A stretch of DNA of 64,000 nucleotides. It comes from Oceanobacillus senegalensis (GTDB taxonomy: Bacteria; Bacillota; Bacilli; Bacillales; Amphibacillaceae). Positions 51,471-64,000 of the stretch are shown one piece after another (position 1 is the first letter of the stretch; each line of letters begins with the position of its first letter). A program made the position numbers and the translations under genes. Where the stretch lies: positions 1,391,049 to 1,455,048 of the forward strand of contig NZ_LT839648.1 in assembly GCF_900176885.1 (NCBI RefSeq). Reading direction: 5' to 3'. The notes under the pieces were generated by a model that did not search any database, had not been told where the DNA came from, and worked only from the letters and a program-made list of their open reading frames with translations.

Positions 51471-52055
51471 TTAAGTTATTTTCTGCAACTCCCATGCAAT
51501 ATGTGCACTTTCTTCCAATTCTTCTAATGCAAAAAACGCTTCCATGATATCGTTTCCTGGTACAACCGGACCATGATGACTCAAAAGCCAGCCATCATTT
51601 TCCTTTACTCGTTTTTCAAATTCGTTAAACAATTCTTGACTTCCCGGTTTTTCATAAGGAATTAAGCCAACTGTTCCCAATTTCATTTTTAGATATGGAG
51701 TGTGATCCGGGATACAATCTGATTCATTTAAATCAGGCAAACAACTCCAAAGCACACTATACGTACTATGTACATGAAGAACTGCTCCTGTACTAGGTTT
51801 AGCTTGAAATACGGATAAATGTAATGGCCATTCTTTACTTGGCTTTTTTTCATTATATGGATTTCCATCCATGTCCATCACAGCAAACTCATCAGCTTTC
51901 AGTGTTCCAAAGCAGGTACCAGAAGCCGTAATATACATTTTATCTTCATGTACAAAGCTTAAGTTAGCAACACTTCCACTAGCTTTCCCACGTTGAAAAA
52001 GACTATGGGCAACCCAAATCGCATTATCCAGCTTTTTATCTAATGTTTTATCCAT
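51471..52055 (-). CDS. otnC: 3-oxo-tetronate 4-phosphate decarboxylase-like class II aldolase
   Basis: A 194-residue class II aldolase/adducin-fold protein. The zinc His are in VLHVHSTYS and WLLSHHGPVV; NLSF and SGTCFG form the phosphate-binding part. Next to otnK it is predicted to decarboxylate 3-oxo-tetronate 4-phosphate to dihydroxyacetone phosphate. L-fuculose-phosphate aldolase-type activity is the alternative. An upstream GTG (52064) is possible, but the ATG has better spacing from GAGAG. Last gene of the nine-gene operon. Confidence 0.85.
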   Translation of the reverse strand: MDKTLDKKLDNAIWVAHSLFQRGKASGSVANLSFVHEDKMYITASGTCFGTLKADEFAVMDMDGNPYNEKKPSKEWPLHLSVFQAKPSTGAVLHVHSTYSVLWSCLPDLNESDCIPDHTPYLKMKLGTVGLIPYEKPGSQELFNEFEKRVKENDGWLLSHHGPVVPGNDIMEAFFALEELEESAHIAWELQKIT

Positions 52056-52087
52056 ACTTACCACACTCTCTATTATTCTATTATCTA

Positions 52088-53314
52088 TTATATGAAGGAT
52101 AAGGCACGAGTGAAAAAATCAGGTTTTCCAAAGTTACCACTTTTCAATACCATTCGAATTCGATGATCCAGTGTAGGTATCATGATTGGCACTCCAGGTG
52201 CGATGCTCTTTCCAATATGGTATCCCGTATATCCGAGCCTTTTTGTTACAGCTCCACTCGTTTCTCCACCCGCAACAATAATCCGATGAAACCCTGATTC
52301 TACCGCAAGTTCGGCTAAATCTGCGGTTGCCTTTTCTAATTTTTCCGCAACTTCTTCTTTCCCTTGTTCCTGGATTCGTTTCACATTTTCAGGGGTGTCA
52401 CTGCTATATACTAAGACGGATTCTTCCTTATTTTGAGAAATGACATTCCATATTCTCTCTACCGACTCCTCTCCAGTTAGCAATTTCATTGGATTCATAA
52501 AATAGGTTTTTCCTCCAGATTTTTGATATTCAGTAATCTGGTTTCGCGTCATTTCGCTGCAACTTCCAGCTAATATTAATGCTGGTGAATCAGAACGGTC
52601 AAATGGATGTGCTGCTATATTTTCTTTATACATTTTGGCCAATGGATATGCTAAACCACTGCCACCAGTAATAAGTTTTAGATTTCCAAATACCTCTACC
52701 AGTTTTTCCGCATCTTCCTCTTTCTCATAGTCTGGTACGATATAAAATTTGTAATCCTTATCATTTGATGTTTCTAATTCATCCACTTTATCCTTGGAAA
52801 GGGAGTCTGATAGTTTCACACTAGGAAACTTACTTTGCACATTCATTAATCGTACTAAATCACAATCCCACATCGGTGTAAGTGGATGATCCTTCATAGG
52901 ACTCTCATGTAATGGAACGCCATTTACATATAAACAACCGTCCTTTACGGTACGCCCATTTACCGGAAGCGCAGGACAAAGAATCGTATATGGAACATCT
53001 AGCTCTTCCATTACCGCATCACAAATCGGCCCAATATTACCTTCAGGTGTTGAATCAAAAGTAGAACAGTATTTCACATAAAACTGTTGTGCACCCTTCT
53101 CTTTTAACCAGCTTATCGCCTCTAAGGAATCTTTAACCGCTTCCTTTGTATCTTGAGTACGGGTTTTTAAGGCAATGACACATACCTCTGCTTGGGGAAT
53201 TTCATCCGAATCTGGAACGCCATTATATAAAATGGTACTTAGTCCACCTTTTACAAAAAAGGAAGCAAGGTCACTGCCACCGGTAAAATCATCTGCAATG
53301 CAACCAAAGCGCAT
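52088..53314 (-). CDS. otnK: 3-oxo-tetronate kinase-like (DUF1537 family)
   Basis: A 408-residue four-carbon acid sugar kinase with the N-domain FGCIADDFTGGSDLA and CPALPVNGRTVKDGCLYVNG blocks, and the C-terminal IIVAGGETSGAV nucleotide-binding part. It phosphorylates a tetronate before decarboxylation by OtnC. The ATG at 53314 follows AAGGGGTG; a GTG 9 bases upstream is less well placed. It follows the dehydrogenase gene by 12 bases. Confidence 0.9.
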   Translation of the reverse strand: MRFGCIADDFTGGSDLASFFVKGGLSTILYNGVPDSDEIPQAEVCVIALKTRTQDTKEAVKDSLEAISWLKEKGAQQFYVKYCSTFDSTPEGNIGPICDAVMEELDVPYTILCPALPVNGRTVKDGCLYVNGVPLHESPMKDHPLTPMWDCDLVRLMNVQSKFPSVKLSDSLSKDKVDELETSNDKDYKFYIVPDYEKEEDAEKLVEVFGNLKLITGGSGLAYPLAKMYKENIAAHPFDRSDSPALILAGSCSEMTRNQITEYQKSGGKTYFMNPMKLLTGEESVERIWNVISQNKEESVLVYSSDTPENVKRIQEQGKEEVAEKLEKATADLAELAVESGFHRIIVAGGETSGAVTKRLGYTGYHIGKSIAPGVPIMIPTLDHRIRMVLKSGNFGKPDFFTRALSFI

Positions 53315-53326
53315 TAGATTCACCCC

Positions 53327-54247
53327 TTATTTTTCAACTAATTCTTCCACGTCGTTTTTACGAACTTTGACACCTAGCAAATCTTCATAGAAACGAATCA
53401 TGGCATGTTTGTAATAATCTCCTTGACCGGCATGTAATGCTAGTTGATAGGTTTGCATAGTTCCGCTTAATGTAGGTAGAGGAATTTCATATTTTACTAA
53501 TACTTCTGCCATACTCTCCATATCCTTATATGCTCTCTCAAGTGAAAATCCATGTTCGAAATTCCCTTCTAAAACCTTTGGAACCAATGTTTTTGATGCA
53601 AAACTTGACCCAGTAGCGGTCATTAATACGTCCCCAAGCTTTTCGGGATCTAAACCAAGTTTAACACCAACAGGCATTAACTCACTAAAGCTTGCAACAC
53701 AAATATTTAACGCACAGTTATTAATCATCTTTGTAAGCTGTCCAGATCCGTTCTCACCCATATAAAGTACCTGTTCACCCATTCTATCTAGCATAGGTTT
53801 TATTGTATTGAATACTTCCTCATTTCCACCACACATGATACTAAGGGTTCCAGCCATGCTTTTCTTCTGTTGACCGGATATAGGACAATCCAAAAATTCA
53901 ATTCCTTTGGATTTACAGGTTTCTGCGATTTCTGTTGCCCCAATATAACTGATAGTACTAAAGTCAACAATCGTTTGACCTGGTTCCAGATTCTTTAAAA
54001 GTCCGTTCTCTCCTAAAATAACTTCTTTTACAATCTCTAAGTTTGGTAAACAAAGGAAGATATAATCACTATCTACTGTATCTATAATATTCGTAGTTGT
54101 TTGAATCCCTTTTTCCTCAAACTGCTTCAGTGCTTCTGGATTGGCATCACATACAAGATATCGAAATTCTCCTTCTTGTTCCCCTTTTGCAAGATTTAAT
54201 GCCATCCCTGTTCCCATTACGCCTAAACCGATAAAACTTACTTTCAT
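53327..54247 (-). CDS. Beta-hydroxyacid dehydrogenase (L-threonate/LtnD-like)
   Basis: A 306-residue NAD(P)-dependent enzyme of the 3-hydroxyisobutyrate dehydrogenase family: GLGVMGTGMALNL, FLDCPISGQQKKSMAGTLSIM (substrate) and Lys in GQLTKMINN. In otn clusters such enzymes oxidise L-threonate or D-erythronate. The exact substrate is inferred from context. The ATG at 54247 has AAAAGGAG upstream; the longer open frame lacks this. Confidence 0.85.
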   Translation of the reverse strand: MKVSFIGLGVMGTGMALNLAKGEQEGEFRYLVCDANPEALKQFEEKGIQTTTNIIDTVDSDYIFLCLPNLEIVKEVILGENGLLKNLEPGQTIVDFSTISYIGATEIAETCKSKGIEFLDCPISGQQKKSMAGTLSIMCGGNEEVFNTIKPMLDRMGEQVLYMGENGSGQLTKMINNCALNICVASFSELMPVGVKLGLDPEKLGDVLMTATGSSFASKTLVPKVLEGNFEHGFSLERAYKDMESMAEVLVKYEIPLPTLSGTMQTYQLALHAGQGDYYKHAMIRFYEDLLGVKVRKNDVEELVEK

Positions 54248-54348
54248 AAAAATCTCTCCTTTTCGTTTTTGAATGGTTTCAAGAGTTAGAAATACGCAAA
54301 AATAGTATCTTAACTCTTGGATGCTCCTTGTTATCAACCTTATTTATT

Positions 54349-55002
54349 TTAGCTTACTACCACACTAGTGATTGCCTTCACCGCTTCTTTAGGACTAGTC
54401 AAAACGGGTAGTCCTAAGGTACGGACCTCCTCTTCCGCAGCTGCCTGTGTTATCTGTGCAAGAATGATTACTTCGCACCCTCTTTTTTTCAATTCCGCTG
54501 CAGCAAGATAATTAAGGCGATGATGTTCTACCGTATTACCTGCTTTCAATTCAGTCATCGCCTCTGTCGTAATTTCTGTATCTATTTCCACTTCTTTCTC
54601 AAATTCCCCAGCAATAGCTTCTAACTGAGATTTGGTTAATGGTCCTGATGGTGCATTGGTTGCAACAACGCCGATTTTAGTATAATTATTAACTACCTTT
54701 TCTAACATCGGACGATCAACCGCCATGATCGGTACGGATATAAATGGCTTTACAGATTCTACGATAGGTGTTAGCACCGTACATGCGACAATAATCGCAT
54801 CAACACCTGCGTCCTGTGCTTTAATGGCAATATGGACAAAATCTTGATGGACTTTATCGTCAATACCTTTTATTTGATTGGTATAATACTGAATATTCTC
54901 ATCAACAAAATTTAAGACTGTTGCCTCTGGAGCTAGATTTTTGAATGCTGCATTTAAAGGCGCTACAGCATTACACGTTGCATGAATAATACCTATTTTC
55001 AT
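54349..55002 (-). CDS. Asp/Glu/hydantoin racemase family protein
   Basis: A 217-residue two-domain protein: the first active-site Cys is in IIVACTVLTPIV. The region that holds the second Cys in classical racemases (GCxH) reads VIILAQITQA, so a two-base mechanism like glutamate racemase is doubtful. A hydantoin racemase, maleate-isomerase-like or decyclising role is possible. The ATG at 55002 follows AAGGAG by 8 bases. It sits 12 bases after the ECF ATPase gene. Confidence 0.8.
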   Translation of the reverse strand: MKIGIIHATCNAVAPLNAAFKNLAPEATVLNFVDENIQYYTNQIKGIDDKVHQDFVHIAIKAQDAGVDAIIVACTVLTPIVESVKPFISVPIMAVDRPMLEKVVNNYTKIGVVATNAPSGPLTKSQLEAIAGEFEKEVEIDTEITTEAMTELKAGNTVEHHRLNYLAAAELKKRGCEVIILAQITQAAAEEEVRTLGLPVLTSPKEAVKAITSVVVS

Positions 55003-55016
55003 CACGATTCTCCTTT

Positions 55017-55886
55017 TTAGAGTATTTCGCTAACCTGTTTATAGGACTCATTATTATCATTTTTCCTTTGGCCTTTTTTAGCTTGTTGTTTTTTTAGACT
55101 TTCAATCATCTCATCAATATCTAATATCTTTCCATTAAAATTCAATGTATTACTCAAACGGCTGATGTGTGGTTGTTTTAACATCGCTTCCTCTAAAATG
55201 TCTAAATTCCAGAAAATTCCCCGCTTATTTTCATCTGAAACTACTTTTTTATTTGCCATCACGATGACACGCTCAAAATTCGTAACCACAAATTCCATAT
55301 CATGTGTGATGGTTATGATGGTTTTGCCTTCTTTTACCAATGCGTTAATAATGGAACCTAATTTTTTAATGGCTATAGAGTCCTGACCAGCTGTTGGCTC
55401 ATCCAAAATAATTGTCCCTGTATCCATCGCGATTACTGAAGCAATGGAAACCATTTTTTTCATGGAATAAGGCAAATTGTACGGGTGTATATCTAAAAAT
55501 GACTCGAGCCCCGTTAATTCTGCGGCCTTTTTCACGTTTTCATTCATCTTCTCTTCTGAAAACCCAAGATTTTTCGGACCAAACATGATTTCGCTTTTTA
55601 CTGTCTCATGAAAAATTTGATCATCAGGATTTTGAAAGACATAGCCTACTTTTCTAGATATTTGAGCCGTTGTATAGTCTTTGGTATTTAAACCTTCGAT
55701 GATGACATCCCCTTTTGTTGGCCTCAATAATCCATTCATCATTTTCACTGTCGTTGTTTTTCCTGCTCCATTTTGCCCAATGATGGCTACCGATTCTCCC
55801 TTTTCGAAGGACATGTTGACATTTTCAACAGCTGTAAAACCATTTGGATAAGAAAAAGTAACATCGTTTAACGTTAAAAAACTCAT
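55017..55886 (-). CDS. ecfA2: ECF transporter ATPase, second subunit
   Basis: A 289-residue ABC ATPase with Walker A GQNGAGKTTT, Q-loop FQNPDDQIF, Walker B IILDEPTAG and switch His in TITHD. The signature motif reads LPYSMKKM instead of LSGGQ, so one of the two composite ATP sites may be weak, which is known in asymmetric ABC pairs. The ATG overlaps the end of the upstream ATPase gene (TGAaaacATG spacing), after AAAGGGGTG. Confidence 0.92.
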   Translation of the reverse strand: MSFLTLNDVTFSYPNGFTAVENVNMSFEKGESVAIIGQNGAGKTTTVKMMNGLLRPTKGDVIIEGLNTKDYTTAQISRKVGYVFQNPDDQIFHETVKSEIMFGPKNLGFSEEKMNENVKKAAELTGLESFLDIHPYNLPYSMKKMVSIASVIAMDTGTIILDEPTAGQDSIAIKKLGSIINALVKEGKTIITITHDMEFVVTNFERVIVMANKKVVSDENKRGIFWNLDILEEAMLKQPHISRLSNTLNFNGKILDIDEMIESLKKQQAKKGQRKNDNNESYKQVSEIL

Positions 55887-56746
55887 GTTTTCACCCCTTT
55901 TAATGCCAGCCATTGCTTCATAACTTTAATAGACTCATCTTCTGTAACTGGAATTTTATCCGTCTTCATATTGTGTTTTCGCATTTGTAAATTTAATTGG
56001 GTATACTGTGTTAACTCCACACCATAGTTTTGTGTATCCTCATTAGCTAGCAATTCCTCTGCTTTTCCTTGTTTCTTAATTTGTCCATCCTGAAGGACAA
56101 CAATATAGTCTGCATATTCGGCAATTAACTCTATTTTATGCTCTACTAATATAATGGTTTTGCCTTTTTGTTTCATAATATCTATGGCTTTAAATATTTC
56201 CTCTGTACCCTGTGGATCTAATTGTGATGTTGGTTCATCAATAACGAGTATATCTGGCTCCATAACAATGATTGATGCTAAAGCCACTCTTTGCTTTTGA
56301 CCACCAGAGAGCTGATTCGGATTTTTGTCTTGTAAATACTCAATCCCTAACAACTTAATAATGTCTTGAACTCGCTTTTCTATCACACTGACCTCAATCC
56401 CTAAATTCTCGAGTCCAAAAGCAATCTCATCAAAAACCGTTTCTTTTACCCCACTGATTTGAGTAAAAGGATTTTGGAAGACAAATCCCACTTTTTGTGA
56501 AATTTCACTTGTATCCCAATTACGAATATCAATTCCATCTATCAGCACATCACCATGAAGATCACCCTTATAAAAGTGAGGGATAAATCCTCTAATAACA
56601 TTACAAAGTGTGGTCTTACCTCCACCATTGACACCAACTAAGGCATATAGCTTACCTTTCTCGATATCAAGGTTAATATCTCGCAAAACCTCATCATTCC
56701 CAGTAGGGTACTTGTATGATAGATTTCTTATCTTTACTTCACTCAT
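55883..56746 (-). CDS. ecfA1: ECF transporter ATPase, first subunit
   Basis: A 287-residue ABC ATPase with canonical motifs: GVNGGGKTTLCN, FQNPFTQI, LSGGQKQRVALA, VIDEPTSQLDP and VEHK. The C-terminal 60 residues are an extension after the ATPase core. It pairs with the next ATPase and EcfT. It overlaps the ecfT stop by 4 bases. Confidence 0.94.
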   Translation of the reverse strand: MSEVKIRNLSYKYPTGNDEVLRDINLDIEKGKLYALVGVNGGGKTTLCNVIRGFIPHFYKGDLHGDVLIDGIDIRNWDTSEISQKVGFVFQNPFTQISGVKETVFDEIAFGLENLGIEVSVIEKRVQDIIKLLGIEYLQDKNPNQLSGGQKQRVALASIIVMEPDILVIDEPTSQLDPQGTEEIFKAIDIMKQKGKTIILVEHKIELIAEYADYIVVLQDGQIKKQGKAEELLANEDTQNYGVELTQYTQLNLQMRKHNMKTDKIPVTEDESIKVMKQWLALKGVKT

Positions 56747-57492
56747 AGGAAAAACCTCCAGATCAAGATGGATACGAATAGAATAATTACTACGCCTTTA
56801 ATAAGGCTATCATTCTTTGTCTTTTCCAATTGATGTAGACTTGTCTTTTTAGTCCGGGCTGTAAAAGCTCTTGATTCTAGGGTAATTGCTTTCTCCTCAG
56901 TACTGGAAAAGGATGATAAAATCAAAGGAGTTAATGCTGGTATAAAGGCTTTCATACGTACGCTTAGCTTCCCATCCGTTTCCACGCCACGGGATCTTTG
57001 TGCATCCATTATTCTTATCATATCCTGTCTCATCTCAGGAATAATGTTAAATGCTGCGATTAGCGTATACGTAGCTTTAGGAGAGATTCCCGCTATTTCT
57101 AACGAACGAGCCAAATCCGTTATTTTAGTAATCTGGAAAAATAAAATTAGTGCTGATCCTATCGCCACAATTTTGGAGGTTAATTGTAAACTGAAAGTAA
57201 TCCCTTCTTGTTTAATGGAGAATGAACCCCATGACCACAGTACGGTTTCTCCCGGATAGAAGAATGATTGTAAAAGAAAAATCATTATAACTATAGGAAG
57301 AAATCCCTTAAGGACGAAGTTTAAGAATAATTTTGACTTACCAACTAACATAGCAATGATCAAGCAAACAATCGGGATCATATATGCATATAGAAATCCT
57401 GGTAATAGAAACGATAGGATGCACAAAAACAAGGTGCAATAAAGTTTCGTCGTTGGATATAGGTTTAGAATATAGGATCTAAGATTTTCCAC
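56743..57492 (-). CDS. ecfT: ECF transporter transmembrane subunit EcfT
   Basis: A 249-residue membrane protein with five or so spans and the cytoplasmic coupling helices of the family, including the AxRSRG motif (DAQRSRGVET) and SRAFTARTKKTS (SRxF). It links the S component to the ATPases. The start is GTG after GGGAGG. Confidence 0.93.
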   Translation of the reverse strand: MENLRSYILNLYPTTKLYCTLFLCILSFLLPGFLYAYMIPIVCLIIAMLVGKSKLFLNFVLKGFLPIVIMIFLLQSFFYPGETVLWSWGSFSIKQEGITFSLQLTSKIVAIGSALILFFQITKITDLARSLEIAGISPKATYTLIAAFNIIPEMRQDMIRIMDAQRSRGVETDGKLSVRMKAFIPALTPLILSSFSSTEEKAITLESRAFTARTKKTSLHQLEKTKNDSLIKGVVIILFVSILIWRFFL

Positions 57493-57539
57493 TTGTTTAC
57501 CTCCCTTTCATTATTGGACTCAAGGTAAGTTGAATTCTA

Positions 57540-58139
57540 TTAACCTGCTTTTTTGTTGTTAATATATAAAGAGCCATAATTTTGTTTAGAAAGGTATTGA
57601 TCGGACATTTTTCGAACAACAAAGTAAGCAATAAACATAGAAAGTATTTTGTCAAAGCTTTCAACAAATAGTTTTTGTGTTACAACGGCTGTCCATATTT
57701 CCTGCCCTGAAGCTAATAGAAAGCCTGTGAAAGCGTCTGATCCAGTTCCGGATGCTCCTCCAAATACAATAACGGTTGTCGGTGTAGCAATTAGTATCGC
57801 AACAATTGCTACAATAAAACCAGTAATCGCGACCTTCCAAATCTTTGTTGTCATGCCCCTCTTAGCTAGAAGACCTACTACAATCCCTGAAGCCATAGAA
57901 ACCGGTGCAAACGCTAACTGTGCAGGGTCAAATACCCCAAAAATCAATTTAGAGAGACCTCCTGTTGCCGCTCCAACCCATGGACCAGCTAACATAGCGA
58001 CAATCATCGTACCAATTTGATTTAAGAAGATAGGTATCTTCAACAAATGGACCAATTCACCAGCAACTACGTTTACTGCAACACCAACAGGAATAAGCAA
58101 AATTGCCATAAGTGTAAAATCCTTTTTTATACCTTTCAT
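57540..58139 (-). CDS. ECF transporter S component (substrate-binding membrane protein)
   Basis: A 199-residue protein with about six membrane segments; LNQIGTMIVAMLAGPWVGA and GGLSKLIFGVFDP match ECF S components. It is not a match I recognise for known vitamin S components (RibU, ThiT, BioY), so the ligand is unknown; the operon suggests the amidohydrolase substrate. The start ATG overlaps the amidohydrolase stop (ATGA). Confidence 0.88.
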   Translation of the reverse strand: MKGIKKDFTLMAILLIPVGVAVNVVAGELVHLLKIPIFLNQIGTMIVAMLAGPWVGAATGGLSKLIFGVFDPAQLAFAPVSMASGIVVGLLAKRGMTTKIWKVAITGFIVAIVAILIATPTTVIVFGGASGTGSDAFTGFLLASGQEIWTAVVTQKLFVESFDKILSMFIAYFVVRKMSDQYLSKQNYGSLYINNKKAG

Positions 58140-59599
58140 ATCTTTCCCTCCTCTAAATGAAGATGAATCTGATCATACATGTTGGTAAAGTAAGGTTCAT
58201 ATTCCTTTGCCAACTGTAGACTCAATTGACTTTTTTCAAGGATAGACTCATATTTATCTTGAACAGCTTTTAAGATGGCCTCTTCATCAAAAGTGACTAT
58301 TTTTCGATCCTTAAGAACCCATTCACCCTTGACCATTACCGAATCAACGGAACTTCCATTCTCGTAATATACTAGTTGAGAGATGGTGTCTGCTTTTACA
58401 GCCAAGGAAGAGGATTGTTTGGTTAAACATACGATATCCGCTTCGAAACCTTGTTTAATTTTCCCACGCTGCTTCTCTTCACCTAACAAGTAAGCACCAC
58501 CAACTGTAGCCATTTTAAAAACATCGATTGGCTCTAGCCATTCTCGGAAATCGGAATGTTCTTGTCGGCTATGCATGACTGCTGTTCTCATTGCTTCAAA
58601 CAGGTTATGAGCAGTCCCGCAATTAGAGGCATCCGTTCCCAAAGCTACATTCATTCCTGCTTGTATATAGGATGAAATTGCCGCTTTCCCACTTCCAAGC
58701 ATCATATTACTTACCGGATTATGAATAAGAGAAACGTCATGCTTTGCAAGATCTTTCACTTCATGTTCTTCCAGCCAAATAGCATGGGCCGCGGACAATC
58801 TTCTCGAAATCAACTGCTGTTCTTGTAATCTACCTATGATCCCACCAGGAAACGTCGAATCACCTATTTTCTTTTGGATTCTTGTTTCCAAAAGATGGGT
58901 ATGAATCAATGCCCCTTCCTGATCGCTTAATTGCTTACATAACGCAAGCATTTCCTTGGAACATCTTTGTGGTGCATTTGGTCCTACTAAGATGTTGATT
59001 TTATTATTCCTTTGATGCCATTTCGTAAAAAGAGACTCATAAAACGCTTTCATTTCCTGGACTGAAATCGGAGTATTATAATCTAATTGTGTCTTTAAAT
59101 CTCCTGGTAATTCTACGGGGAGGAAGTGATGATCCGGTACATCGTGCATCATGGGAGCAAACCCGACTCTAATAGAAGAAGTTTCATATGCTTTTAGAGC
59201 GGCTTCTGATCGTTTGATATGTGGAAAATGATCAATGCAACTAGTAACACCACTTCTGATCATGTCTATTGAACCTAAAAGCACGGCATGGTAAATATCG
59301 TCATCATCTAGAGAATGTCCGTATGCCGTTGTATACAGCGACCATATTTCTAATGGTAAATGGCTGGTAGTCCCTTTTAATAGATTGGAATAGGAATGAT
59401 AATGTGCATTTGTCATTCCAGGCATGATAACCATTTCCGATCCATCAATTGTTTCCTTGGCACGAATCGGTGGTTCACTTTCTGGTGAATGTGGAATAAC
59501 TTCCATAATAATTCCATCTTCCACCAACACACTCCCTTGGATCGTGCCTAAATTATCATCCATCGTGATGATGGTGGCATTTTTAATTAGAATTGACAT
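58136..59599 (-). CDS. Amidohydrolase, S-triazine/adenosine deaminase-like (TrzN/MtaD/SsnA group)
   Basis: A 487-residue TIM-barrel metal hydrolase. Metal ligands are NAHYHSY (HxH), HTHLLET, a His in AAHAIWLEEHEV and LGTDASNCG (Asp). The group deaminates or dechlorinates heterocycles (guanine, SAH, triazines). Its substrate here is unknown; first position in an operon with a dedicated importer suggests it acts on the imported compound. ATG follows a run of G (GGGGGGGAG). Confidence 0.9.
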   Translation of the reverse strand: MSILIKNATIITMDDNLGTIQGSVLVEDGIIMEVIPHSPESEPPIRAKETIDGSEMVIMPGMTNAHYHSYSNLLKGTTSHLPLEIWSLYTTAYGHSLDDDDIYHAVLLGSIDMIRSGVTSCIDHFPHIKRSEAALKAYETSSIRVGFAPMMHDVPDHHFLPVELPGDLKTQLDYNTPISVQEMKAFYESLFTKWHQRNNKINILVGPNAPQRCSKEMLALCKQLSDQEGALIHTHLLETRIQKKIGDSTFPGGIIGRLQEQQLISRRLSAAHAIWLEEHEVKDLAKHDVSLIHNPVSNMMLGSGKAAISSYIQAGMNVALGTDASNCGTAHNLFEAMRTAVMHSRQEHSDFREWLEPIDVFKMATVGGAYLLGEEKQRGKIKQGFEADIVCLTKQSSSLAVKADTISQLVYYENGSSVDSVMVKGEWVLKDRKIVTFDEEAILKAVQDKYESILEKSQLSLQLAKEYEPYFTNMYDQIHLHLEEGKI

Positions 59600-59623: not shown

Positions 59624-60163
59624 CTATTTTTTTAGATACTGTTGTTTGTGTCGCGGAATAGATAGTATGTTCACTTACTTGTAAAAGATATTGGTATGGT
59701 GCTCATGTTGATTTCCTCTCCAGGCAGTCGCTTTCCGCGGGCGCGGCTTCAGGCTCCGTAGCGGAAGACCGCACTTCGGAGTCTTCAGACACGTGCTATT
59801 ACCACAGGACAAGGAAGGCTTCGTCAGCGTTACACCTTCGTGAGAAAAAGTGTTTTTCTTTTTCAAGGAGTCGACTGGCCTCCCTCCATCAATCAGCTTA
59901 ATAGTGGAAACATGTACTTTATTCAACTAATTTATATTGATCAAATGCTAGAAAGCTCAAGGCCAGCGAAGGAAATACACGAAGACTCCAGTGGGACGAG
60001 AGGCCTAGGTGAGACACCGTAGTGCGTTAGCACGAAGGTGGCTCATCAGCCGCCCACGGAAAGCGTAGTGTAATTCCGTAGCGGTATTTACGCACTAATT
60101 TTAGCACTCAACTGCATAGCAAATTAGCAAGAATATATACGAAAACAGCTATCTAAAAAAATG
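59624..60163. repeat. ~540-bp repeat element with terminal inverted repeats
   Basis: The left end CTATTTTTTTAGATACTGTT and the reverse of the right end GCATTTTTTTAGATAGCTGT form terminal inverted repeats. Inside are two GC-rich arms in opposite orientation: CAGTCGCTTTCCGCGGGCG at about 59734 and CCGCCCACGGAAAGCG at about 60049, each with a GAAGACTCC block. I recognise this as a repeat type common in Bacillaceae. No credible protein. It separates the two catabolic modules and could form a large hairpin in RNA. Confidence 0.75.
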
Positions 60164-60165
60164 CT

Positions 60166-61137
60166 TTATTTAATTTTCGATCTTGTGTCTTCTAATGTAG
60201 CGATACGGTTGGCGAATTGTTTTGCTACGCTCTGTCCGTCCACTCCCATAAGAACGGAGCTGTTGGGTTCGGAATGACCCCATTGTCCTGTGAACTCTGC
60301 GACGGTTTGTCCAGCTGTCAATTCCCCTTTTGTCTCGATGGAAACAAAAGCTGGTTGCTCGTCAAATAGTTCTGGCCACAATGCGTATGCTACAGCGGGT
60401 ACGTCGTTGAAAAAGACACCTGTTTCTGTTGCTGAAGATTGCTGTACTTTGACGTATGCTTTACGACGGAATTCAGCAGCTTCAAGAAGAAATGCTCCTG
60501 GTCGATTACCTGCTTCACGAATGTGGTCTAGGTTCTCTTTAGAAATTCGCACTTTTGTACATACATCAAGCCCAACCTGAACAATAGGTACACCGGACTC
60601 ATACATCATTCGTGCTGCTTCCGGATCACTAGCTAAATTGAAGGATGCCACTGGGGAAAAGTTTCCGGATACACGGACAGCTCCGCCCATGACGATAATT
60701 CTTTTCACCTTCTCTGCAAGACTAGGATCGATAGAGAGGGCAAGCGCTACGTTCGTTACAGGACCTAACGCGATAATCGTTATTTCGTTTGGTGTTTCAT
60801 TACAGCGCCTTACTATTTCCAGCGCAGCACTTGTCTTCTCTTCTGATATCGTCGGGTTTGGGGCCTCGACACCTCCAAAACCATTGTTGCCGTGAATGTG
60901 CTTGGCAAAATAGGCTTGACGCACAAGAGGTTTGCTAGCTCCTCGGTAAACAGGAATGTCTGTTCTTCCGGCTAGCTCAAGTAAGGATAGTGCGTTACGC
61001 GTCGAAGTATCTACCTCGATATTCCCATACACCGTCGTTAAAGCTTCAACTTGTAACTCCGGTGATGCGATGGCAAGATAGATTGCCGCAAGATCGTCAA
61101 CACCTGGATCCGTATCAATAATAACTCGTTCTACCAT
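60166..61137 (-). CDS. Inosine-uridine-type nucleoside hydrolase
   Basis: A 323-residue hydrolase that cuts nucleosides into base and ribose. The DTDPGVDD motif (8-15) binds Ca2+ and ribose; GNNGFGG and FNLASDPEAA are further active-site pieces. Substrate preference cannot be told. ATG follows GAGGAGGATAAG. It is downstream of the BtpA-like gene and its stop abuts the repeat element. GC content is visibly higher than in core genes. Confidence 0.9.
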   Translation of the reverse strand: MVERVIIDTDPGVDDLAAIYLAIASPELQVEALTTVYGNIEVDTSTRNALSLLELAGRTDIPVYRGASKPLVRQAYFAKHIHGNNGFGGVEAPNPTISEEKTSAALEIVRRCNETPNEITIIALGPVTNVALALSIDPSLAEKVKRIIVMGGAVRVSGNFSPVASFNLASDPEAARMMYESGVPIVQVGLDVCTKVRISKENLDHIREAGNRPGAFLLEAAEFRRKAYVKVQQSSATETGVFFNDVPAVAYALWPELFDEQPAFVSIETKGELTAGQTVAEFTGQWGHSEPNSSVLMGVDGQSVAKQFANRIATLEDTRSKIK

Positions 61138-61248
61138 AATCTCTTATCCTCCTCTTCTAAGTAAGTAAAGATAGGAAGAGGGGCTAACTTCCCCCTCCAC
61201 TCCCTTCCATACTAGGAATCTATTAAAATGACCAACTTCTTCGTGCAG

Positions 61249-62073
61249 TTATGCTAGTTGAGGGTTTCTTTCTCTGTCTACACCTTCGCAAAAGCGACGC
61301 GTTTTCTCCTCATCTACTGGATTCGTCATGATATCATCAATTTTAGAACCGTAACCAAAGACTGCTCCATCTGCATGTTTGAGAAGATTCGCTGTCTCAA
61401 CTTTCATTCCACTCCCAATAATAATAGGCACATCAGGTACCGCACGCTTAACTGCTGTTAAATTCTCAATGGATGGAGGCTGAGCCGATTCTTCTCCAGC
61501 AAGAATAAGTGCGTCTGCCATCCCACGATAAGCTGCATCACGAGCCACAACATCAATAGGACGTTCTGCTAACGGTGCAGCGTGTTTTGTCTGAATGTCT
61601 GCGAAAATTTTAACCTTATTCTCTAAACCAAGGAATTTACGATATCTCGCTACTAAGTGCGCTGTACCGTTGATGAGACCCTGATCCGTCACGTACGCAT
61701 CAGTAAGAACATTAAGTCTGATAAAATCAGCTCCTACTGTTCCAGCAACTGCTAATGCAGATTTCCACGAATTTCTTAGTATATTAATCCCCATAGGAAG
61801 CTTCACTTCCCGGCGAATTTCATGAGCAATCATGGTCATCGCTGCCACTGTTTCTGGTTCCTCTGTTTCAGGATAAAACGGATAATCATTGAAATTTTCT
61901 ACCATAACTGCACTAGCTCCACCCTTTTCCAAGCTTTTCGCATCACGAATGGCGGCTTCTAAAACCTGTTCCATATTCCCATCGTACAGTGGAGAGCCTG
62001 GTAGAGGCTGTAAATGAACCATACCCAATACTGGTTTTTCAACACCGAAAGTACTCTTTAATGAATTTGTCAA
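61249..62073 (-). CDS. BtpA/SgcQ family TIM-barrel protein
   Basis: A 274-residue protein matching the BtpA family: LGMVHLQPLPGSPLYDG, GGASAVMVENFNDYPF, GINILRNSWKSALAVA, ADFIRLNVLTDA and VPIIIGSGMKVETA. Members include SgcQ of a sugar operon and a cyanobacterial photosystem I factor; a phosphosugar or nucleobase-sugar enzyme is suspected but not shown. The start is TTG after GGAGGAG. Confidence 0.88.
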   Translation of the reverse strand: MTNSLKSTFGVEKPVLGMVHLQPLPGSPLYDGNMEQVLEAAIRDAKSLEKGGASAVMVENFNDYPFYPETEEPETVAAMTMIAHEIRREVKLPMGINILRNSWKSALAVAGTVGADFIRLNVLTDAYVTDQGLINGTAHLVARYRKFLGLENKVKIFADIQTKHAAPLAERPIDVVARDAAYRGMADALILAGEESAQPPSIENLTAVKRAVPDVPIIIGSGMKVETANLLKHADGAVFGYGSKIDDIMTNPVDEEKTRRFCEGVDRERNPQLA

Positions 62074-62148
62074 ACTAAACTCCTCCTTATTTTATAGAAC
62101 ATTTTTATATAGCATGGATTTAACATGGTTGACTATTAGTCATATACT

Positions 62149-62958
62149 TTATTCAATTACATCCATAGGCAGTTTCACATCCGCATCCATACTCGGCGCC
62201 CTTAGTTGTGCTGTAAGTCCGCCATCGATGGATAAGATGTGACCTGTGATATATGAAGCTTCCGGTGATGCTAAGAAGCGAACACCTTGACCAACATCTT
62301 GAGGCATTCCAAGCCTTCCCAATGGAATAAGACCGTCTGGTGAGGATTCTTCCCCGACAGTAGTTCGGTTTTCTACCCACATAGCTCCAGGCATCACAGC
62401 ATTAACTCGGATTTTCCACGGAGCCAGATCAAGTGCCATAGCTCGTGTAGCAGCCTCAATAGCACCTTTTGTCGCGTCATAAGCGACACGATTTCGGTGT
62501 GCACGTGTAGCTCCTCCAGAACTCATATTGATAATGTTTCCACCTTCACCTTGATGAACCATCGCCTTTGCCGCCATTTGGCTACAGTGGTATAGGCCAT
62601 TAAGGTGGATATTCATTAGATTTTCCCACATGGAGTAGTCTGTCTGTAGGAAATGTCTTTCCGATAGCGGGCCGTGACCTATGCCTGCATTGTTAACAAG
62701 CACATCGATACCACCCTGGAAACCGTTGGCTACCTCGAACAGATTTTTTACATCATCACTTGATGAGACATCCGTATATACAAACAGCCCATCGCCACCT
62801 GATTCGATGATTTCTTGCACACATCGCTCACCGGCTTCCGCGTCAATATCTGCGATGACTACCGACGCACCAATCTCAGCAAAAGAAAGGGCTATTCCTC
62901 GGCCAAGTCCCTTTGATCCACCGGTCACGATAACGCGTTGCTTTACCTTATTACCCAA
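62149..62958 (-). CDS. Short-chain dehydrogenase/reductase (glucose 1-dehydrogenase-like)
   Basis: A 269-residue SDR with TGGSKGLGRGIA (cofactor), NNAGIG, active-site Ser in INMSSGG and Tyr-x3-Lys in VAYDATKGA, and the ITGHILSIDGGLTAQ end. It probably oxidises a sugar or polyol; the substrate is unknown. The start is TTG after AAGGAGTG. It precedes the BtpA-like gene by 75 bases. Confidence 0.88.
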   Translation of the reverse strand: MGNKVKQRVIVTGGSKGLGRGIALSFAEIGASVVIADIDAEAGERCVQEIIESGGDGLFVYTDVSSSDDVKNLFEVANGFQGGIDVLVNNAGIGHGPLSERHFLQTDYSMWENLMNIHLNGLYHCSQMAAKAMVHQGEGGNIINMSSGGATRAHRNRVAYDATKGAIEAATRAMALDLAPWKIRVNAVMPGAMWVENRTTVGEESSPDGLIPLGRLGMPQDVGQGVRFLASPEASYITGHILSIDGGLTAQLRAPSMDADVKLPMDVIE

Positions 62959-63102
62959 TTTTATTCACACTCCTTCTAAGTACCGTTATTTAAGTGTTTG
63001 TGAAAAAGTAGGTTAACAATTCATTTATTTCCATTTAATCTCTGAATCTATTCAAACGCTAACCTTCTAACGTTCGAGATTTGAAAAGGTTAGATTCACA
63101 TT

Positions 63103-63125
63103 ACTGAGTATTGGTAATACTCAGT
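63103..63125 (-). terminator. Short hairpin after a gene remnant
   Basis: ACTGAGTATT pairs perfectly with AATACTCAGT around three bases; it covers the stop codon of the remnant. There is no T run. Confidence 0.4.
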
Positions 63126-63222
63126 TTACAGAAATCCCATAATCTCCTAATTTCTTTTCAAACCATTTCTTCGTGTTTACAAAACTATTGCCAGCAAATT
63201 TCACAAGTGCATTGTCTAACGT
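63121..63222 (-). pseudogene. C-terminal remnant of an unrecognised gene
   Basis: A 33-codon stretch (TLDNALVKFAGNSFVNTKKW, then FEKKLGDYGISVN, stop) looks like a genuine protein end but is preceded directly by an in-frame stop and has no start. It sits between the MBL-fold gene and the SDR gene, so one gene of this operon appears to have been lost. Confidence 0.5.
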
Positions 63223-63266
63223 TTAACCACCACCTTTAACACTTAGTAACATGTTCTCTATTTTGA

Positions 63267-64000
63267 CTACTTTGTGAAGACAGATTTCTGTTCCAATTCT
63301 ATTGTGGTATAATCCTCTAGTGTGTCAGAAAACCAACATTGTAAATCGGCTTCTCTTTTATGGAGATACATAGGCTTCCCATTAATCAATTTCATCGGTA
63401 TATCGTGGCCAGGGATTAGAATATTTTCCGGCTTTTCTTTCCACAATTTCCATAGATAATCTATGGAACCTTGGCTTTCCGATAGATTTAACGTCATGTC
63501 CGCATCGCTTGATAAAAGTTCAGCTCTATTTTTTGCTGCATCACCACAAAATATCAAATCATAATCACCATTATCTACCGTGTAGGTTAGGTGTCCTGGT
63601 GTATGGCCTTTTGTTTGATGAGCAACAATCCCAGGAACAACTTCCTCAAGATGATCAACTAATTTTGTTTGTGGGGAACGATTTAATTCCTTTACATATA
63701 GTTCAGGTACATGCCATCCTCCCGCTGGTTCATTTAATGCCCACTCCATATCCACTCGCCCTACTACAATGGTTGCGTTAGGAAACATGGTCCAATTTAC
63801 ACAATGATCCCAATGCGTATGTGTCAATAAAATCATAGTTATATCATCTGGTGACAAACCTTTGTCATGTAACTTCTCTAATAGAAGTGGACGGACACCA
63901 AAACTACCGACGTCAATAATTATATTCTCATCGTTCTGCGACAGCAGTGCCACTGTACTCCAGCCTAACCCTCCGTGAGTTGAGGACTTTCCAGGAAACC
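63267..64000 (-). CDS. Metallo-beta-lactamase-fold hydrolase, 5' end outside the window
   Basis: The frame stays open to the window edge, and the codons before the first in-window GTG encode FPGKSSTHGGLGWSTV, which is typical N-terminal sequence of the family, so the gene is partial. HTHWDH, GHTPGHL and GDAAKN are the metal-binding motifs. It resembles quorum-lactonase-like hydrolases; in this context a lactone of a sugar acid is a possible substrate, which is inference. Confidence 0.88.
   Translation of the reverse strand, partial: FPGKSSTHGGLGWSTVALLSQNDENIIIDVGSFGVRPLLLEKLHDKGLSPDDITMILLTHTHWDHCVNWTMFPNATIVVGRVDMEWALNEPAGGWHVPELYVKELNRSPQTKLVDHLEEVVPGIVAHQTKGHTPGHLTYTVDNGDYDLIFCGDAAKNRAELLSSDADMTLNLSESQGSIDYLWKLWKEKPENILIPGHDIPMKLINGKPMYLHKREADLQCWFSDTLEDYTTIELEQKSVFTK

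Follow-up and report, generated by a model that had tools for sequence, protein, structure and literature searches.

We describe here a LacI-linked operon of Oceanobacillus senegalensis (assembly GCF_900176885.1, contig NZ_LT839648.1), which most likely serves the use of a purine nucleoside with a ribose altered at the 5' carbon. The operon comprises 14 genes on the minus strand and lies in a stretch of 64,000 nucleotides (positions 1,391,049 to 1,455,048 of the contig, hereafter the window), running on past its edge. That the operon encodes a nucleoside pathway appears very probable to us, and we see about an even chance that its substrate is adenosine 5'-carboxylate (9-riburonosyladenine) in particular. 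This compound would fit the loss of an O5'-binding glutamate from the operon's nucleoside hydrolase, a hint of glyoxylate release in related gene clusters, and the substrate for which the operon's kinase, OtnK, is named.

Gene content and conservation of the operon

An earlier note on this DNA had described nine minus-strand genes, joined by 4-base overlaps or short gaps, as a candidate catabolic operon. These genes are present at 51471-59599, and their family assignments are backed by Pfam and NCBIfam profile scores set against the models' cut-offs, which underlie all family calls for window proteins in this study. The nine genes do belong to a conserved joint unit, but they are only part of it: the operon continues upstream through 60166-64000 and past the window edge with genes that the note had missed. 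It reads LacI regulator, MBL (metallo-beta-lactamase-fold protein), SDR (short-chain dehydrogenase/reductase), BtpA, NucH (nucleoside hydrolase), AmdH (amidohydrolase), the energy-coupling factor (ECF) importer genes EcfS, EcfT, EcfA and EcfA', racemase-like protein, beta-hydroxyacid dehydrogenase (HAD), OtnK and OtnC. Within the nine-gene part, three junctions have a 4-base overlap (AmdH/EcfS, EcfT/EcfA and EcfA/EcfA') and the others short gaps.

Searching 397 genomes of the order for AmdH gave matches at E 1e-70 or better in 17, and the neighbourhoods of these matches are of two types, type 1 in 7 genomes, the window's included, and type 2 in 10. A search of 31 genomes of one family added an eighth type-1 genome (G837); four of the 31 carry an AmdH with 73-76% identity, and three of these four had already been found. 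The label "type 1" was given after the neighbourhoods had been viewed and coincides with an AmdH identity of at least 70% in every genome read. The whole gene set recurs in the same order in all eight examined genomes with such an AmdH, which represent four genera and include two of Rossellomorea aquimaris, two of Fredinandcohnia onubensis and one of Fictibacillus phosphorivorans; the gene order is unchanged in both Fredinandcohnia genomes apart from a doubled BtpA gene. This recurrence is far beyond chance, so that the co-occurrence which the earlier note had proposed to look for is borne out and the objection that the set might not be conserved falls away. Flanking genes are common only within a genus (6 shared pairs among 36 flank open reading frames at the seven loci other than the window), and the block thus behaves as a movable unit. 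The 14-gene operon is conserved and has probably been transferred.

Residue changes in the nucleoside hydrolase

NucH (60166..61137, minus strand; PF01156, 304.9 bits) has the fold of the ribonucleoside hydrolases RihA, RihB and RihC and shares with them the calcium-binding Asp motif DxDxxxDD (DTDPGVDD in 8/8 type-1 proteins), the equivalents of Asn158 and Asn166 and the loop His, and it reaches no NCBIfam equivalog (RihC model, 264 bits of 382). In RihA, the ribose O5' is held by Asn158 and Glu164 (PMC2898832), which by alignment correspond to Asn159 and Ser165 in the window's NucH. All eight type-1 enzymes keep the Asn and have Ser at the Glu164 position, whereas Glu is found there in 7/7 NucH proteins of other EcfS loci and in 29/29 order-wide controls. 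The controls stem from a PF01156 search of 41 genomes of the order, 21 of which had matches at 47 places; 30 loci were read, one being the window's own. The leaving-group His of RihA (His240) is Asn in 8/8 type-1 enzymes (Asn244 in the window), compared with His in 28 of the 29 controls and Pro in one. Nucleosides without a 2', 3' or 5' hydroxyl are turned over at a very low rate, a strictness described as common to all isozymes so far characterised (PMC8910321). The missing O5'-binding Glu suggests that the 5' position of the type-1 substrate is probably altered. As a specificity residue that is otherwise conserved has been lost, the question of the substrate can be tested directly on one purified enzyme.

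A deaminase-type amidohydrolase and a built-in ECF importer

The COG0402-type amidohydrolase AmdH (58136..59599, minus strand; PF01979, 166.5 bits) is proposed to be a purine nucleoside deaminase. The residues for metal binding and proton shuttling in deaminases of this type (H66xH68, H235xxE238 and D323) are kept; they are invariant in 16 aligned AmdH proteins and also align to solved members. AmdH further contains a GPNAPQRC motif. Its solved relatives (4v1x, 4f0r and 1p1m) include a 5'-methylthioadenosine/S-adenosylhomocysteine (MTA/SAH) deaminase, TM0936 and atrazine chlorohydrolase. No NCBIfam equivalog is reached (best score 261.7 of 609 bits; 5'-deoxyadenosine deaminase 245 of 522), and identity to the AmdH proteins of the other type-1 genera is 70-77%.

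The importer is complete, with the S, T, A and A' subunits EcfS (57540..58139), EcfT (56743..57492; PF02361, 94 bits), EcfA (55883..56746) and EcfA' (55017..55886), all on the minus strand, the two ATPases being called from Pfam and NCBIfam. The substrate-binding component EcfS has one match in its own genome; its closest family is CD3073, a putative ECF family, but it stays below the cut-off of NF045596 (129.6 bits of 180), as it does in Pfam (21.6 bits of 30.7). A search for EcfS among 98 relatives gave 16 places in 12 genomes, the window's own counted. Of the 15 besides the window's, 14 were read together with their neighbouring genes, the exception lying on a very short contig. A nucleoside hydrolase gene is found near the EcfS relatives of at least 122 bits in 7/7 cases and near those of 94-102 bits in 0/7. 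The S components of L018-L024, which have their own ECF clusters with nucleoside hydrolases, are 39-62% identical to the window's EcfS and, judged by these neighbours, likely form a family of nucleoside ECF importers; L018 and L019 also contain a PfkB/ribokinase-like gene (named by eye). The ECF genes stand inside the gene row in all eight type-1 genomes, with the 4-base EcfT/EcfA overlap in each. The earlier view of a dedicated ECF importer in a catabolic unit that ends in the tetronate kinase/decarboxylase pair therefore holds, and the importer is supported as a built-in part of this unit. The S-component match of L024 (G020:C6:104650-105231) has one internal stop codon.

Sugar oxidation and tetronate-type enzymes

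OtnK (52088..53314, minus strand; DUF1537 family, PF07005 and PF17042) passes the 3-oxo-tetronate kinase model NF043035 with 441 bits against a cut-off of 350. It is followed by the last operon gene (51471..52064, minus strand; PF00596, 139.9 bits), which encodes an OtnC-like decarboxylase of the class II aldolase family (3-oxo-tetronate 4-phosphate decarboxylase type). The beta-hydroxyacid dehydrogenase (53327..54247, minus strand; PF03446 and PF14833) carries Lys173 and a DCPISG motif, both of which we take to have catalytic roles. At the other end of the operon, the SDR gene (62149..62958, minus strand), of the sugar 1-dehydrogenase type and assigned to the glucose 1-dehydrogenase subfamily (NF005559, 222.3 bits, cut-off 215), adjoins the gene of the lactonase-like MBL-fold protein (63267..64000, minus strand, continuing to about 64028; full gene at L017:4316-5077 in the locus fetched beyond the window). 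The MBL protein belongs to no NCBIfam family; it keeps the HxHxDH motif, and its best matches among solved structures are TM0894, N-acyl homoserine lactonases and organophosphorus hydrolases.

The racemase-like protein of the Asp/Glu family (54349..55005, minus strand; PF01177, 59.1 bits) keeps the first catalytic Cys (C74) in an alignment to the Asp racemase 1jfl, and LAQIT replaces the second Cys motif. Since the second Cys is absent from 7/7 aligned racemase-like proteins (L123 was left out), the protein is unlikely to be a two-base racemase. Distant relatives occur in 2 of 398 sampled genomes of the phylum besides the window's own; both (Bacillota) read LAQ and sit with PdxA-type dehydrogenases, one of them also with a DUF1537 protein. 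Their setting fits a role near four-carbon acids and fixes no reaction. The BtpA/SgcQ family protein (61249..62073, minus strand; TIGR00259, 267.7 bits, above the cut-off of 153.4) is 90-91% identical between genera, compared with 70-76% for AmdH, and 398 sampled genomes of the class, evidently without another type-1 genome, contain no close homolog (E 1e-70) besides the window's own. For these two reasons BtpA probably does something specific in the operon. A sequence search against solved structures gave only weak matches to TIM-barrel-type enzymes (best E 0.0082). The tandem BtpA genes of Fredinandcohnia are found at 12514 in L050 and at 6505 in L051, and the L050 copy holds a run of unknown bases.

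Proposed pathway

The nucleoside hydrolase in the operon, together with the nucleoside hydrolases beside the close S-component relatives, points to a purine nucleoside, not to a hydantoin, pteridine or lactam. These last compounds, which the earlier note had suggested, also disagree with the deaminase residues of AmdH, with its kinship to MTA/SAH deaminase and with the sugar-oxidising enzymes of the operon. The note had further supposed a nitrogen compound that yields a four-carbon acid; the nitrogen compound and the last steps look right, but the direct release of the acid by the amidohydrolase does not, so that its chemistry looks right in the last steps and wrong in the first.

We infer the substrate, the individual reactions and the order of deamination and cleavage as follows. 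The ECF importer would take up adenosine 5'-carboxylate, AmdH would strip the 6-amino group and NucH would free hypoxanthine and riburonate. The SDR would then oxidise C1 of riburonate to give a lactone, which the MBL protein would open to ribarate, and the beta-hydroxyacid dehydrogenase would oxidise C3 of ribarate, which is beta to both carboxylates. Loss of one CO2 would yield exactly 3-oxo-tetronate; this step might be carried out by the beta-hydroxyacid dehydrogenase itself (compare 6-phosphogluconate dehydrogenase), by the racemase-like protein or by BtpA. Finally, OtnK would phosphorylate 3-oxo-tetronate and OtnC would decarboxylate the product to dihydroxyacetone phosphate (DHAP). Judged by the established reactions of these families, the sequence from riburonate over ribarate to 3-oxo-tetronate matches the substrate named for OtnK, which ordinary ribose, 5-deoxyribose and methylthioribose do not. 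Nucleoside oxidases (EC 1.1.3.28) make nucleoside 5'-carboxylates, and no description of a catabolic pathway for oxidised nucleosides was found in the open-licence literature searched.

Type-2 sister clusters and a possible release of glyoxylate

The AmdH proteins of the type-2 clusters are 45-57% identical to those of type 1, and the LacI regulators are closely related. The named AmdH set of 52 loci comprises 5 loci of type 1, 17 in which AmdH is joined by an ECF set and a phosphorylase, 4 that have phosphorylase and isomerase but no ECF genes, and 26 others; as the underlying scan used the patterns GPNAPQRC and [TI]N[AS]HYHSY, the conservation of these motifs in the set is partly by selection. 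Type-2 clusters encode phosphorylases and, in most cases, an MtnA-type isomerase and a class II aldolase. Phosphorylase, isomerase and aldolase occur together in 15 of the 17 named ECF-linked type-2 loci, L085 and L112 being without isomerase and aldolase in the stretch covered.

Malate synthase G is encoded in nine of these 17 loci, starting 213-398 bases after MtnA, and an FAH-family gene is present in the same nine; four of them also hold a malic enzyme, named by NCBIfam in two cases and by similarity to those in the other two. Among 22 genomes of one genus, including Halobacillus litoralis, malate synthase G exceeds its cut-off in nine and AmdH is present in six. The malate synthase G gene lies within 2 kb of AmdH in 6/6 AmdH genomes and is present in 3 of the 16 without AmdH (Fisher p 0.0011, the species not being independent); one of the 22 genomes has a second copy outside the cluster. 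Malate synthase, malic enzyme and pyruvate dehydrogenase form a malate cycle that oxidises glyoxylate (PMC7486775). Malate synthase G, in part with malic enzyme, thus suggests glyoxylate as a type-2 product, which the aldolase would free directly from a 5-carboxylated ketose 1-phosphate. In the Halobacillus loci L078, L079, L080 and L083, the deaminase relative, phosphorylases, isomerase, aldolase, malate synthase G and malic enzyme stand together in one locus. Four type-2 loci have instead an aldehyde dehydrogenase, a nickel-pincer isomerase, a sugar-acid dehydratase relative and a ComB-like protein, which are largely enzymes of acids, too. In L061, L076, L082, L084 and L112, the genes beside AmdH form a further variant, which encodes a phosphatase resembling ComB, an aldehyde dehydrogenase, a nickel-pincer isomerase (NF052515 in L061) and an IlvD protein resembling sugar-acid dehydratases.

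We tentatively propose, with slightly less than even confidence, that bacteria have dedicated ECF-fed pathways for nucleoside uronates with a common deaminase family and regulator: a hydrolytic one over ribarate and 3-oxo-tetronate, encoded by the present operon, and a phosphorolytic one, in which a 5-carboxylated ketose phosphate would be split into DHAP and glyoxylate. If true, this would extend the substrates of ECF importers by a new class and place BtpA in a catabolic setting. Oxidised nucleosides are the specific nutrient predicted, and no account of bacteria feeding on them was found in the papers searched. The proposal also offers testable functions for CD3073-type S components, for a one-Cys racemase relative and for BtpA.

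Alternative explanations

The same kind of pathway could act on 5'-deoxyadenosine or 5'-methylthioadenosine, which the DHAP shunt is known to use; free 5-deoxyribose or methylthioribose would then be oxidised and not phosphorylated. We consider this unlikely. AmdH is related to MTA/SAH and 5'-deoxyadenosine deaminases, the type-2 clusters have MtnA- and class II aldolase-type enzymes, and a NucH without the O5'-binding Glu fits a 5'-deoxy sugar; yet a 5-deoxy or 5-thio aldonate would offer OtnK no terminal hydroxyl and would have no route to 3-oxo-tetronate, and acetaldehyde or methylthioacetaldehyde gives no obvious need for malate synthase G and malic enzyme. Furthermore, the type-2 MTAP-like proteins read His-Lys or His-Arg in 19/19 listed, which does not suit a hydrophobic 5' group; in L055 this pair aligns with Val236-Leu237 of human MTAP. 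Ordinary purine ribonucleosides might also be used by an oxidative route, from ribose over ribonate to a 3-oxo acid, with the OtnK and OtnC homologs acting on a five-carbon acid to give erythrulose 4-phosphate. Such a route would agree with the nucleoside hydrolases beside the S-component relatives, two of these relatives also having a ribokinase-like gene nearby, and with the LacI protein, whose top scores are to the PurR and RbsR models, below their cut-offs. We nevertheless judge it decidedly unlikely, as the Glu kept in all controls is lost from NucH, plain phosphorylation would be enough for ribose, as the genes of L018 and L019 suggest, the 3-oxo-tetronate kinase model matches OtnK, and the operon has no evident enzyme for erythrulose 4-phosphate.

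Only a slim chance is left for a heterocycle or eritadenine from which hydrolysis frees a four-carbon acid directly, with the nucleoside hydrolase part as a separate neighbour. Amidohydrolase, tetronate-type enzymes and importer are indeed contiguous, and eritadenine consists of adenine joined to a four-carbon hydroxy acid. However, NucH, BtpA, SDR, MBL and LacI stand next to this set in an unchanged order in 8/8 genomes, with NucH-AmdH gaps of 49-94 bases in the seven other than the window's, and eritadenine has no sugar lactone step; it was set aside as substrate because it lacks a glycosidic bond for NucH. That the ECF part is an importer for an ordinary vitamin and merely adjoins a tetronate operon has hardly any probability: vitamins and cofactors are the best-known cargo of ECF importers, and the S component is without a family assignment, but the ECF genes keep their place and their EcfT/EcfA overlap in all eight type-1 genomes, and an ECF set accompanies the related AmdH in 17/17 named type-2 loci counted.

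Several observations weigh against the proposed use of adenosine 5'-carboxylate or against parts of it. NucH lacks the leaving-group His, and some proteins of its fold without leaving-group residues are inactive on common nucleosides while other enzymes without it work (PMC8910321). Ser in place of Glu also fits a 5'-deoxy or 5'-thio sugar. The best NCBIfam match of the OtnC-like protein, NF043034, stays below its cut-off (177.8 bits of 250), the beta-hydroxyacid dehydrogenase reaches no equivalog (L-threonate dehydrogenase NF043037, 165.6 of 350), and none of the ECF subunits reaches an NCBIfam equivalog cut-off. The pathway offers no firm step for BtpA or for the racemase-like protein. The AmdH family is broader than the pathway, since 26 of the 52 named relatives occur in other contexts, mostly in proteobacteria and in 14 of the 26 with an NMT1-like ATP-binding cassette (ABC) transporter. 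The evidence for glyoxylate stems from type 2 and not from the window's own system; 8 of the 17 type-2 loci are without malate synthase G, which may have its own promoter, and glyoxylate could come from ordinary ribose via glycolaldehyde and glycolate, although no glycolate oxidase is among the identified type-2 cluster genes, the flanks not having been searched. Adenosine 5'-carboxylate itself is only weakly documented as a natural nutrient: two metabolomics papers mention 9-riburonosyladenine, and the formula given in the second does not fit the compound.

Relation to known systems

In the tetronate pathway known from work on DUF1537 proteins, OtnK and OtnC act with an L-threonate or D-erythronate dehydrogenase and OtnI. 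The present operon resembles it in its OtnK-type kinase, OtnC-type decarboxylase, beta-hydroxyacid dehydrogenase and probable end product DHAP. It differs in its upstream half, which comprises nucleoside cleavage and sugar oxidation, in the low equivalog scores of the OtnC-like protein and the dehydrogenase and in the presence of a racemase-like protein without the second Cys; moreover, no OtnI-type isomerase gene (hydroxypyruvate-isomerase-type match) is found among the 14 genes, the rest of the genome not having been searched.

The DHAP shunt converts a 5-substituted ribose 1-phosphate to DHAP and a two-carbon aldehyde that bears the 5 substituent (PMC6079011). As in this shunt and in 5-deoxyribose salvage by drdKIA (PMC6079011, PMC10986504), a 5'-modified purine nucleoside would be split here and its sugar converted to DHAP. 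Type-2 clusters use the enzyme families of the shunt (phosphorylase, MtnA-type isomerase and class II aldolase) plus an AmdH relative. Type 1, in contrast, has no phosphorylase, such sugar kinase, MtnA or sugar-phosphate aldolase, its class II aldolase-family member being the OtnC-like protein, and its sugar would be freed by a hydrolase and then oxidised. The available text of PMC10986504 does not mention glyoxylate or glycolaldehyde, nor does that of PMC6302742 mention ECF, energy-coupling or malate synthase.

Dedicated ECF importers consist of one S component with its own EcfAA'T, and the complete EcfS-T-A-A' set in one operon conforms to this type; it differs in that it would serve carbon use of a nucleoside-like compound and in an S component below the CD3073 family cut-off. 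The earlier remark that no description of Otn enzymes with an ECF importer and an amidohydrolase was known to its author agrees with our searches, in which ECF import, nucleoside cleavage and tetronate catabolism were not found together. The combinations of nucleoside hydrolase and BtpA, of ECF and nucleoside hydrolase, and of DUF1537 and nucleoside likewise gave no description in the text available, which covers open-licence papers only and is thus not proof of absence.

Regulation and further observations

The LacI gene follows the MBL gene beyond the window (G000:C4:1455559-1456575; L017:5560-6576). Between the two lies a promoter of the TTGAAA/TATAAT type (read by eye), with TGGAAACGTTTCCA boxes behind it. 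Two perfect boxes are present in 7/8 type-1 operons and one box with one mismatch in the window genome; a further one-mismatch TGGAAACGTTTCCA box stands ahead of LacI in 7/8. The core of the palindrome, GGAAACGTTTCC, accompanies LacI in 7 of the 25 type-2 loci scanned, some of these 25 being the same genome fetched twice, and at up to one mismatch it occurs once within the window, inside NucH (0.16 expected by chance). The LacI groups of the two types are close (up to 507 bits). As the TGGAAACGTTTCCA palindrome also matches the cre consensus of CcpA, it is not proof of LacI binding, and LacI is only the probable owner of the boxes.

Two further ECF clusters, L028 (12352-16090) and L030, combine a PfkB kinase-like and an eIF2B/MtnA-like gene (both named by eye) with BtpA and are a second setting that ties BtpA to sugar or nucleoside use. 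On an alphaproteobacterial contig, L088 (15108-20881), an AmdH relative, an NMT1-like ABC transporter, OtnC and OtnK lie within about 11 kb. OtnK near a proteobacterial AmdH relative was not used as a second link: it exceeds its cut-off in 8 of 16 such genomes searched and was seen within the fetched flanks of these AmdH relatives only in L088.

In the window genome only, the gap between NucH and AmdH is interrupted by a dispersed-repeat stretch (59640..60160, no strand assigned), which has no part in the function. It has at least 47 matches in its own genome, itself included, a lower bound as 40 of 141 candidates were scored. The stretch contains an inverted repeat of 15 bases whose arms are separated by 307 bases.

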